Shown here one piece after another: positions 9,691 through 34,796 of a DNA stretch of 36,006 nt. Source of the stretch: a virus; the IMG/VR virus record IMGVR_UViG_3300007960_000074, positions 1-36,006 of that record; one strand, written 5' to 3'. Within the stretch, counting starts at the first letter, position 1; each line of letters begins with the position of its first letter. The translations under genes and the position numbers were made by a program. The notes beneath the pieces are model-generated. The model ran no database searches. It saw only the letters and a program-made list of their open reading frames with translations, and was not told where the DNA came from.

Positions 9691-10850
9691 CGATTACTTC
9701 TCAGTAGTCGACAGACTATATCTTATCAAAATTTCTGATTTTCTACTCATAGAGTAGGGGTTATAACAGAACATCTTAGCAAAAGATTCAACAGTACTCT
9801 TTTTCTTAGAACTAATTCTGGCTTTCCCTTCTCTTCTGTAGATATTCCAACCTAAAAAAGAATTAACTTGGTCTAAAAAGCTATATTGGTTAATATGTAA
9901 CTCTATTTCTACTTGAACAGTGTTTCTACCAGCTACTTTGGAAACTGAACCGTCGCCATTAAATAACCCTGTAACAAAGTAACCCATAAATTCCTGACTA
10001 TTTTTTATCCATTCTGGTATAGTATAGCAACTATAGGTTTTATTTGGAATTAAGTTAGTAGTTTTTTTAACTTTTTCTAAGTATCTATGGTCTTTAGCTG
10101 TAAAAGTGTAAAAAAGTCTTCCATCAGGCTTATTTATAATATTTAAGTTAGACCCAAAATAGTCACAACAGAACTGTATTAGTTCTATATCTTTAGATAC
10201 TGCGCTTATAGCCCCTTCTTTAGATATATTACCATCTGCCACTAAATACCCTATTATATAAGCTGTTTGCTTTGTAGGCTGTAATAACTTTTCAAAAGTT
10301 GCTTTTCTATGAGCTTCTTTTAAATTTATATTGCCGTTAGTTACCAAACGCATTTGTATATTTTTAGGTATATACTTTCTAACTGTTTGTGGAGCTTTTC
10401 CTATAGAAGCACAAGCTTTAACAAACCCTACTCCTTTGTTAGCCAAACTTTCTAACTCTTGAATTTCTTTTATAGTTAAAGGTTTAGAATTAGTCTTATA
10501 TCCAACTAAGTTAAAATATTTCTTTCTAGCCTTTATTGTAGTAATACTACACTCAAAATAATTGGCTAATTGTTCGTTTGTATAACCAGAGTCCAATAGA
10601 GATATTAGTTCTTCTTTAGTAATATTTTTCAATTTTGATTTTCCCGTTTCGAGCTTTTTTAGCCCTACTCTTTTCAGATAGTCGTTGAACCTTGCCCATA
10701 TATAATAACTTAGGGCCTTGGCTGCTGATTGTCTAATCCTAATATTTTCTTGCATTCGCGCTTACCTTTTCAAGTTACGCTGTAGCTATTAGGCTCTAAA
10801 GATATTCCAGCAATTAGAGAAATTTATACTGGGCAGGACTTATGCTGCAT
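9691..10850 (-). mobile_element. Group I intron in the ssb gene
   Basis: A 1160-nt intron. The 5' exon ACTGGGT (10857-10851) pairs with the internal guide GCCCAGT (10834-10828), leaving the canonical U.G wobble at the 5' splice site. A P-like element (AATTGCTGGAA) follows the guide, and the 3' end carries the classic S-type element AAGATATAGTC (about 9714-9724). The last intron base is G (9691). Removing it joins the two halves of the SSB in frame. It encodes a LAGLIDADG endonuclease whose 3' codons overlap the S element. Confidence 0.9.
9694..10755 (-). CDS. Intron-encoded LAGLIDADG homing endonuclease
   Basis: 353 residues. An N-terminal region of about 150 residues contains helix-turn-helix-like segments (TNEQLANYFECSITTIKARK). 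Two LAGLIDADG-type motifs follow: AYIIGYLVADGNIS (about 164-177) and FMGYFVTGLFNGDGSVS (about 256-272), each ending in the acidic catalytic residue. Two motifs imply a monomeric enzyme. It lies wholly inside the group I intron, ending three bases before the 3' splice site. Expected role: cleavage of intronless ssb alleles to spread the intron. Confidence 0.93.
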   Translation of the reverse strand: MQENIRIRQSAAKALSYYIWARFNDYLKRVGLKKLETGKSKLKNITKEELISLLDSGYTNEQLANYFECSITTIKARKKYFNLVGYKTNSKPLTIKEIQELESLANKGVGFVKACASIGKAPQTVRKYIPKNIQMRLVTNGNINLKEAHRKATFEKLLQPTKQTAYIIGYLVADGNISKEGAISAVSKDIELIQFCCDYFGSNLNIINKPDGRLFYTFTAKDHRYLEKVKKTTNLIPNKTYSCYTIPEWIKNSQEFMGYFVTGLFNGDGSVSKVAGRNTVQVEIELHINQYSFLDQVNSFLGWNIYRREGKARISSKKKSTVESFAKMFCYNPYSMSRKSEILIRYSLSTTEK

Positions 10851-20187: not shown

Positions 20188-20553
20188 TTATTTTTTCTTT
20201 GATGGTACAGCTGAAATAATTTCATCTTTCAGTTCGAAGCACTCAGTGTGCCCTCCGAACGTAATAGAAGGAGTGTACTTATATTCTTTAAAATGTTCAT
20301 GAAGCAGTTGTTCTAGCTTCCAAACTTCATATAATGTGTCAATATAAGTTTTTTGAATTCGTATATCGTAGCCTTTAAATCCACCGCTACGCTTGATAAC
20401 ATTCTTAAAAGAAGTACCCTTTGCTATACCTATCTTCAGGCACTCTCGTTGCATAGTTTTTCTATTTACTAACACCACACAATACAAAATACCAGGCTCT
20501 TCTTTTTCTTCTGGGTTGTTTTTAAAGTAGGTGGCGTTATAAATACCCTTCAA
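20188..20553 (-). CDS. T5orf172/GIY-YIG-like nuclease
   Basis: 121 residues. LYCVVLVNR and LKIGIAKGTSFKNVIKRSGGF correspond to the GIY and YIG-like strands of the T5orf172/Mug113 branch. A helix WKLEQLLHEHFKEYKY and a FGGHTECFEL segment complete the family pattern. It sits between the two ligase subunit genes. Homing-type or structure-specific activity is inferred from the family. Confidence 0.75.
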   Translation of the reverse strand: MKGIYNATYFKNNPEEKEEPGILYCVVLVNRKTMQRECLKIGIAKGTSFKNVIKRSGGFKGYDIRIQKTYIDTLYEVWKLEQLLHEHFKEYKYTPSITFGGHTECFELKDEIISAVPSKKK

Positions 20554-32878: not shown

Positions 32879-33544
32879 CTATACCCACTTAGAAAACTTT
32901 TTATTTATTAAATTTTCAGCTTTTGCCCTTACTTTTTTATTAATTGGAGGGTAGTCTTCTATATACTTTTTAAAAATTTCTAAAACTTCGACTTCTGTTT
33001 GTAGATTTACTAAGTATCCATGAGGACTTAAAGCCTTTAATCCTAATAAAATTATTAGTTTTTGTTCTTCAAAAAGGGCTTCTTTTTCTGTTAAATTATC
33101 AAGTATTTTATATACTTGAGCCTCTTGACCTTGTTCACGTATAGAAGTTCTTAATTTTCTGTGCGAGTCGTTTCTGTTAAGATTATAACATCTATCTCCC
33201 TTTCCCTTACCCACATAAAAAGGTTTATGCTGTAAGAAATAATTAGTAGCTAAATAAGTGTCTCTAATATCATGCAGTACTTTTAATGGTTGTAAGGGAT
33301 TACAATGTACATATACATAGTATTCTCCTCTATCTGTTAAAGATACCCCAGGACAGGGAATACTACGAAAATAATTTAACAAGTCTAAAATATCTGGAGC
33401 ATTTAATCTTTCACTGTTCCCATACTTAATAGGAGCGAATTTGTATTTCTGTCTAATTAACTCTTTTCTTCGTTTTTGTAATCTGCTTATAGTTTTAGAT
33501 AAATCAGATATATCATTCCAATTTACGGGTATCTCTTTTATCAT
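32879..33544 (-). CDS. GIY-YIG homing endonuclease
   Basis: 221 residues. An N-terminal basic helical region (SRLQKRRKELIRQKYKF) is followed by the GIY-YIG core: EYYVYVHCNP, FYVGKGKGDRCYNL, SIREQGQEAQVYKILDN and the catalytic Glu in EALFEEQKLI. The gene sits between the tag-coding half of the tmRNA and tRNA-Trp. There is no good ribosome site before the ATG. Confidence 0.87.
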   Translation of the reverse strand: MIKEIPVNWNDISDLSKTISRLQKRRKELIRQKYKFAPIKYGNSERLNAPDILDLLNYFRSIPCPGVSLTDRGEYYVYVHCNPLQPLKVLHDIRDTYLATNYFLQHKPFYVGKGKGDRCYNLNRNDSHRKLRTSIREQGQEAQVYKILDNLTEKEALFEEQKLIILLGLKALSPHGYLVNLQTEVEVLEIFKKYIEDYPPINKKVRAKAENLINKKFSKWV

Positions 33545-33551
33545 ATTAATA

Positions 33552-33582
33552 ATTGGGGAATTTTATAAGAAGGCTCCCCAAT
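33552..33582 (-). other. Hairpin at the 3' end of the tmRNA coding piece
   Basis: A perfect 8-bp stem ATTGGGGA/TCCCCAAT with a 15-nt loop, followed by TATTAAT. It lies 17 nt after the tag stop codon and may mark the 3' boundary of the RNA or act as a weak terminator before the GIY-YIG gene. Confidence 0.6.
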
Positions 33583-33712
33583 AGACCCCCATCTTAGCTT
33601 ATGCAGCTAGAGCGTAAATTTCATCATTTGCATTTACATTTAGTCATTTTTACGTCTTCGTTGACGAACTCTAAGAATTCCTATTATCATCCTGTCGAAA
33701 CCTTACTCGCCC
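33583..33712 (-). ncRNA. ssrA: tmRNA coding piece (tag ANDEIYALAA), permuted ssrA
   Basis: The 5' end GGGCGAG (33712-33706) leads into AAGGTTTCGACAGG, the hallmark tmRNA 5' sequence. A small PK1-like hairpin (TTCGTCAACGAA) follows. The tag frame starts at GCA 33631 and reads ANDEIYALAA with TAA at 33601-33599, very close to the E. coli tag ANDENYALAA. A short P5-like stem TAGCT/AGCTA spans the tag stop. The matching acceptor half is encoded upstream at 33819 and beyond. The exact 3' end (33583 to about 33552) is uncertain. Confidence 0.9.
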
Positions 33713-33818
33713 CTCAGAAGTAGACTAGTATACACCATAGTGTATAAGCACGAAGAATGTATCCATTCAAACCTCTTTTAGCGACTAGCGCGGGCCGTTC
33801 ACCTGTCTAATCTACTTT
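33713..33818 (-). ncRNA. Intervening segment of the permuted tmRNA
   Basis: 106 nt joining the acceptor piece (after its CCA) to the coding piece. It is closed by AAGTAGA (33817-33811) pairing with TCTACTT (33724-33718) next to the acceptor stem and contains an ATACAC/GTGTAT hairpin. Known permuted tmRNA precursors have such a segment removed during maturation. Confidence 0.7.
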
Positions 33819-33955
33819 TGGTGGACGAGAGGATATTGAAATCCTGTCCAGTATGTTTTAATGTCCTCTATTATAGAGTTAATAGTGAGGCCCACTATCA
33901 GAGGTTGAAACGCCTCACCACGCTTTCCAACTTGAAAAGATAACTATAAGGAGAG
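33819..33955 (-). ncRNA. ssrA: tmRNA acceptor piece, permuted ssrA
   Basis: The 3' end is CTCGTCC-A-CCA (33829-33819), complementary over 7 bp (one G.U) to GGGCGAG at the start of the coding piece. Before it lies a T-arm-like AGGAT-TTCAAT-ATCCT, then a helix CCTCT/AGAGG enclosing ATAGTG/CACTAT, and GTGAGGC able to pair with GCCTCAC to form a pseudoknot. The 5' boundary is estimated. No anticodon arm is present, which excludes an ordinary tRNA. Confidence 0.85.
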
Positions 33956-33959
33956 TTTT

Positions 33960-34071
33960 CTTTTTAAAGCACATCTAATTTCTTACCAGAGGATCGCTAC
34001 TCGCTCATGAAACTATCAATAACCGGCTACGATTAAAGGCTTCGCGCAAAGCATTGATGTGCTTTAAAAAG
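33960..34071 (-). ncRNA. Structured RNA segment closed by a 16-bp perfect stem
   Basis: CTTTTTAAAGCACATC (34071-34056) is the exact reverse complement of GATGTGCTTTAAAAAG (33975-33960), enclosing 80 nt with an inner GCTT...AAGC hairpin. It lies between the repeated RNA domains and the tmRNA acceptor piece. Confidence 0.75.
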
Positions 34072-34159
34072 AGCCCAGTTGTTCACTAGGTCGGGGCCTG
34101 AATTTTCCGGTGTCCAACACTTTGATATGCGTGTCTATTCACCACCCGTTTATCACTCT
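34070..34159 (-). ncRNA. Repeated RNA domain, copy B
   Basis: About 90 nt homologous to copy A. On the RNA strand it runs from AGAGTGATAAA through GAATAG, ATATCAA, TTGGAC and AAATTCAGG to GGGCTCTTT. Helices: AGAG/CTCT, CGGG/CCCG, GTG/CAC and CCTAGT/ACTGGG. The last three differ from copy A by compensatory changes. No coding frame fits. Confidence 0.8.
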
Positions 34160-34220
34160 TCTCAATTGGAACCTTATAGGAGACACCTGATGTTACTCAG
34201 CCAATTTATGTCTTTTTTAA

Positions 34221-34309
34221 AGAGCCTAGCTGTTGGCTAGGAAGCGCCCTGAATTTCCCTGGGTCCAGCCTATTGATATTTCAGCCTATTCCCAACGCTT
34301 TATCACTCT
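34221..34309 (-). ncRNA. Repeated RNA domain, copy A
   Basis: 89 nt with the same order of conserved blocks as copy B. Helices: AGAG/CTCT, AAGCG/CGCTT, GGG/CCC and CCTAGC/GCTAGG with a CAACA loop. The 61-nt linker to copy B is itself closed by AATTGG/CCAATT. Confidence 0.8.
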
Positions 34310-34336
34310 TTCTCTGCTGATGTTTTATCATATTAA

Positions 34337-34383
34337 ACTACTCCCTGTTAAGGAGGCTGGAATCAAACCAGCATATCAGTAGT
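34337..34383 (-). ncRNA. Three-way-junction element with a T-arm-like hairpin
   Basis: ACTACT/AGTAGT closes two hairpins: GCTGG-TTTGATT-CCAGC, which looks like a tRNA T-arm, and CTCC-TTAACA-GGGAG. No cognate tRNA body surrounds it, so it is interpreted as part of the larger structured RNA or as a tRNA relic. Confidence 0.6.
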
Positions 34384-34705
34384 TATTAGCAAATACCGTT
34401 GTTAGTGCGGCAAAGAATTCCGGTCCTCAGGCTTTGCAGGCCCTACTTACCCCTCCAAGTTTGCTAAGGCTTTAATGTCCTGAAGGGGGAGCCATGTCCT
34501 TCAGTAATACGGTGGAGTAAGTGTCGCCGTAATCACTATTTTGCCTATGTTATTTAGCGAGTTCTCTAGACATGCTCGACAGCTTTCCTTTACGGTAGTT
34601 CTGTGCCTTTGGTTTAAAGTGCGGGTCAACACTTAAATTATGCTCACCTGACCGAAGATTGCGATTCTACCGGAATTACTGACACTAAGTGTATGATGAG
34701 CAAAC
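34384..34705 (-). ncRNA. Non-coding, hairpin-rich 5' part of the structured RNA region
   Basis: No coding frame of note. Several stems are visible on the minus strand: CTGAAGG/CCTTCAG around 34480-34505, TACGG/CCGTA around 34509-34532 and AAGTG/CACTT around 34617-34635. Together with 33960-34383 this makes about 740 nt of RNA-like sequence between tRNA-Met and the tmRNA, the setting in which large phage RNAs such as GOLLD and ROOL occur. Assignment to either family is not possible by eye. Confidence 0.55.
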
Positions 34706-34796
34706 TGGTAGCAAGAGGTGGATTCGAACCACCGACCTACGGAATATGAGTCCGCCGTTCTGCCGCTCTGCCGCTCTGCCGCTGAACTATCCTGCT
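34706..34796 (-). tRNA. tRNA-Met (CAT anticodon) with expanded D-loop
   Basis: Acceptor AGCAGGA/TCTTGCT, anticodon arm GCGGA-CTCATAT-TCCGT, T-arm GGTGG-TTCGAAT-CCACC, and CCA encoded. The D-loop holds three tandem copies of AGCGGCAG where one copy would give a normal loop, making the gene 91 nt instead of 75. It could be elongator Met or Ile (lysidine-modified CAU). Confidence 0.85.

Follow-up and report, generated by a model that had tools for sequence, protein, structure and literature searches.

On the minus strand of the viral record IMGVR_UViG_3300007960_000074 (36,006 nt; this 36-kb stretch is called the window below) positions 33902–33551 are occupied by a circularly permuted tmRNA gene, in which an acceptor piece is followed by an intervening sequence and then by a coding piece. 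The window represents part of a T5-like phage. Its DNA polymerase shares 45% identity with the enzymes of T5-like Escherichia, Proteus, Providencia, Pantoea, and Vibrio phages, and further genes encode a DnaB-like helicase, SbcC, a PhoH-like protein, and a spanin, together with the beginning of an NAD-dependent ligase. The tmRNA gene lies within a tRNA-rich stretch and is flanked by tRNAs. We infer that the source is a virulent T5-like phage; no integrase was recognised among the genes sampled in the window.

The acceptor piece, which comprises the tRNA-like 3' part and the 5' strand of the P2 helix, was placed by the Rfam models RF04321 and RF01850 at 33819–33902 with an uncertain 5' end (33880–33902). 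The initial annotation had located this piece correctly by its CCA end, but its true extent reaches further upstream, to about 33880–33902. The acceptor end CTCGTCC-A-CCA stands at 33829–33819 and consists of the 3' stem strand CTCGTCC with U70 (33823–33829) and of discriminator A73 with an encoded CCA (33819–33822, the CCA itself being 33821–33819). The 5' strand GGGCGAG with G3 (33706–33712) forms the 5' end of the coding piece, and the proposed 7-bp acceptor stem between the two pieces is borne out by the predicted fold of the precursor, where 7 of 7 pairs form with a probability of 0.96–1.00. The G-U third acceptor pair is the identity pair of alanyl-tRNA synthetase (AlaRS), and both alanine identity elements, G3-U70 and A73, are present here. 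Across the 109 distinct sequences in which the stem forms, G3-U70 was found in every one, pairs 1–3 and 7 were invariant, and pairs 4–6 covaried through G-C, C-G, A-U, U-A, and wobble types; the mean number of acceptor pairs was 7.0 versus 5.6 when partners were shuffled, a shuffle that ignores relatedness. The P2 helix is short, and both models pair AACTC with GAGTT. The T-arm AGGAT-TTCAAT-ATCCT (33830–33845) has a 6-nt loop and the closing pair T53-A61, as assigned from the sequence and by comparison with 109 other permuted sequences. A TATAAT motif in the acceptor piece was considered as a promoter and dismissed, since no promoter-like site was found there; the region as a whole shows no excess of such sites over shuffles.

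The 106-nt intervening sequence (33713–33818), which is expected to be removed, folds by itself at −30.3 kcal/mol. The helix AAGTAGA/TCTACTT, by which the initial annotation had closed this connector, is real, and the predicted fold lengthens it to 11 pairs. In the coding piece the GTTTCGACAGG segment occupies 33701–33691 and the conserved GGTTTCGAC of the tRNA-like domain, matched by RF04321, occupies 33694–33702; in the RF04321 alignment the stretch before GGTTTCGAC and the T-loop are each 1 nt below the consensus length. The tag frame (33599–33631), read from the sequence and RF01850, starts with the resume Ala codon GCA at 33631, encodes ANDEIYALAA with an intact tail ending in ALAA, and terminates with TAA. 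Thus the acceptor end, GGGCGAG, GTTTCGACAGG, the resume codon, the tag, and the stop codon were all recovered on the minus strand where the initial annotation had placed them. The coding piece ends with the 3' hairpin ATTGGGGA...TTCCCCAAT (33552–33582), aligned to the last RF01850 helix. The exact tag ANDEIYALAA was matched in neither viral nor genome contigs, and host inference via an identical tag was therefore dropped.

The Rfam model tmRNA_permuted (RF04321) matched 33880–33599 from end to end at 99.3 bits with E 2.2e-18 (all families, whole window), the gathering score being 47 bits, and thereby sustained the earlier proposal of a permuted gene order in a phage. From the three older clade models for the alpha, beta, and cyano forms (RF01849–RF01851) the best was beta_tmRNA (RF01850), whose 66.8 bits fall short of its cut-off of 84. 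The one-piece model RF00023 had no match at its cut-off of 47 in the whole record, its best score being 18.9 bits on a tRNA and its score at the permuted gene itself 15.1 bits; the one-piece reading was accordingly rejected. ARAGORN run on the whole window reported only tRNAs and missed the permuted tmRNA, which might speak for a chance assembly of tmRNA-like motifs; with the RF04321 match at E 2.2e-18 such an assembly is already refuted and has a negligible probability. The circularly permuted two-piece phage tmRNA is supported as the correct reading by the covariance model, the pairing of the acceptor stem and of the intervening sequence, and about 110 other viral permuted tmRNAs.

A pattern scan of IMG/VR for TCCACCA...GGTTTCGAC gave at least 120 matching stretches; among the matches listed nearly all had a T-arm and an acceptor stem and most had an intact tag, while a handful, such as L016, L055, L077, L078, L087, and L092, were chance matches. 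Permuted tmRNAs with varied yet intact tags occur commonly in viral contigs. Of 44 viral records whose DNA polymerase is related, one record of 106 kb contained a permuted tmRNA above the cut-off (93.7 bits); the absence in the others means little, because they are mostly short fragments. This record (IMGVR_UViG_3300032288_005212, L203) is, like the window, T5-like, with a 60% identical DNA polymerase and a tRNA cluster near the permuted tmRNA; it differs in the tag ANDDVYFEDIRLAA, which is also intact, in a 7-nt T-loop, in GGATTTGAC replacing GGTTTCGAC, and in a CCA that is not fully encoded. No close homologue of the window's own tmRNA was found, BLAST for isolate phages with this tmRNA gave no credible match, and a search through flanking glycosyltransferase-like or GIY-YIG genes revealed no relatives.

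Because ssrA genes are common integration sites, the locus could be a passive relic, namely host DNA picked up by the phage or a copy of an attachment site, in either case unused by it, and the lack of a close phage homologue of this copy fits such an origin. Nevertheless, both pieces are complete, the sampled genes of the window are T5-like with no recognised integrase, and in viral contigs varied intact tags are common and acceptor pairs covary, which makes a relic highly improbable.

The gene shares with the permuted tmRNAs of RF04321 and RF01849–RF01851 the order of pieces, G3-U70, CCA, GGTTTCGAC, and a tag ending in LAA, but differs from the known forms in the 6-nt T-loop with T53-A61, the long 106-nt intervening sequence, the short P2, and the score below the beta cut-off. 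A 7-nt T-loop with G53-C61 is usual, though not strictly defining, for permuted tmRNA, whereas here the 6-nt loop TTCAAT is closed by a T-A pair. A scan for the 6-nt-loop geometry detected 21 viral contigs, 20 of which resemble permuted tmRNAs and one (L213) does not. The 13 distinct 6-nt-loop sequences, the window among them, are without exception closed by a pyrimidine-purine pair Y53-R61 (7 C-G and 6 T-A), while in deduplicated 7-nt-loop sequences the closing pair was G-C in 96 of 96. Since the 6-nt form is common to 12 other distinct viral permuted tmRNAs, it was treated as a variant and not as a ground for exclusion. The 6-nt loop was also rejected as the cause of the ARAGORN miss, since ARAGORN does detect 17 of the 20 further viral contigs with such a loop.

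Across about 85,000 species genomes the 6-nt pattern with a gap of 70–100 bases (92–122 bases in the viral scan) had only two matches: one arose by chance in a contig of Myxococcales lacking a tmRNA, and the other is a short contig that carries a permuted tmRNA, tRNAs, and a gene resembling ClpP and that may itself be phage. For rough calibration, 82 of 380 genomes from a single phylum with small genomes matched the 7-nt form when the second half was omitted. For bacterial gaps of 70–100 bases, a range that differs from that of the viral scan, these data suggest that the 6-nt form is restricted to phages. It is conceivable, albeit rather doubtful, that the 6-nt loop and the flipped closing pair mark a phage-restricted sub-lineage of permuted tmRNA whose tRNA-like elbow is altered, perhaps so as to diverge from host tmRNA in recognition by SmpB, EF-Tu, or processing enzymes.

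The atypical T-loop is also what might be expected of a decoy, a phage RNA that titrates SmpB or AlaRS and thereby shuts off or diverts trans-translation in the host, a role suggested for the tmRNA of mycobacteriophage DS6A, which has only the tRNA-like part; molecules of the DS6A type inhibit tmRNA (PMC4131195; PMC11915505). However, the intact resume codon, tag, stop codon, and 3' hairpin retained here would be dispensable for a decoy, and an intact tag is also kept in the related T5-like record L203, so that this role appears very unlikely.

The surroundings of the gene contain several further features. An open reading frame with a weak GIY-YIG match (Pfam E 1.5e-4, below the cut-off) begins 7 bases past the 3' hairpin. 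Four genes resembling endonucleases of distinct types (HNH, LAGLIDADG, T5orf172/GIY-YIG-like, and LEM-3-like GIY-YIG) were observed at 2189–2869, 9694–10755, 20188–20553, and 32879–33544 (minus strand), several of the matches being near or below the Pfam cut-off, and the last gene adjoins the tmRNA directly downstream. The only long plus-strand open reading frame (18–1250, at the record edge) encodes a serine-rich repeat protein with SDSASPTATLEAQASDSV units and had no PHROGs match.

On the other side about 740 gene-free bases (33959–34700, minus strand) separate the tRNAs from the tmRNA and contain a perfect 17-bp inverted repeat (33959–33975/34056–34072). This stretch might be one large non-coding RNA; no Rfam family reached the cut-off in it, and its folding energy is mildly below that of shuffles (z −1.4). 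Within it, directly upstream of the tmRNA (34053–34310, minus strand), two tandem copies of a non-coding motif are 70% identical over 98 aligned nt at a spacing of 151, each with a hairpin CCTAG...CTAGG or CCTAG...CTGGG followed by CTCTTT and A/T runs; the motif had no match in viral contigs. The gene-free stretch also includes, at 34296–34393 (minus strand), a sub-threshold match to YrlA, a Y RNA-like family (35.9 bits, cut-off 69, E 5e-6), with a T-arm, a closed acceptor-like stem, and a D-arm, i.e., a permuted tRNA-like module; the YrlA model also matches many control genomes, this fold is no more stable than shuffles, and no TROVE/Ro gene was found in the window. The CAT-anticodon tRNA at 34709–34791 (minus strand) bears a triple GCGGCAGA repeat in the D-arm region, apparently a slippage expansion; it was missed by ARAGORN and matched by Rfam only over 34709–34775.

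Neither the window nor 14 further viral records, 13 of which derive from loci that match permuted tmRNA, yielded an SmpB gene, though most records are incomplete; host SmpB would therefore be needed. The locus is very probably a complete, functional-looking permuted ssrA gene that belongs to a T5-like phage and would rescue ribosomes together with host SmpB. While sequence and pairing are directly established, processing, charging, tagging, and benefit to the phage are expected from established tmRNA biology. Host tRNA-processing enzymes would cleave a single precursor at 33712/33713 (RNase P) and again after the CCA at 33819, the intervening sequence would be discarded, and the two RNAs would be held together via the acceptor stem and P2. 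After charging by AlaRS via G3-U70 and A73 the RNA would enter, with host SmpB, ribosomes stalled on stop-less mRNAs, which abound during host mRNA degradation, add ANDEIYALAA, and free the ribosome for phage translation. Thus trans-translation with host SmpB is the most likely function. The beta-like character of the tmRNA hints at a betaproteobacterial host, though it proves nothing.

Published proposals on the role of phage tmRNA, translation upkeep or tagging of host proteins for recycling, match those of the initial annotation. The novelty that it implied is not supported. Phage tmRNAs were described earlier in phage G and mycobacteriophages (PMC4131195), the 2025 tmRNA database lists 79 unique bacteriophage sequences (PMC11915505), and in the 2022 study of methylophage Melnitz 53 two-piece tmRNAs were reported among phage isolates, 50 being of marine or aquatic origin (PMC9004378). 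Like the window, Melnitz and other marine phages carry a permuted tmRNA with no evident integration role; Melnitz, however, is a myophage whose alphaproteobacterial-type tmRNA is linked to a glutamine riboswitch (PMC9004378), whereas the window is T5-like, is nearest to the beta form, and yielded no riboswitch in an Rfam scan.

In summary, permuted phage tmRNA is already known and common in environmental viral DNA, and the new element is one more example: a T5-like fragment and a second related record join the phages known to carry it, with a gene missed by ARAGORN yet found by RF04321. The T-loop variant is a small structural lead, which, if confirmed, would show that the tRNA-like domain of phage tmRNAs evolves in its own right and that these RNAs are more than copies of host genes.
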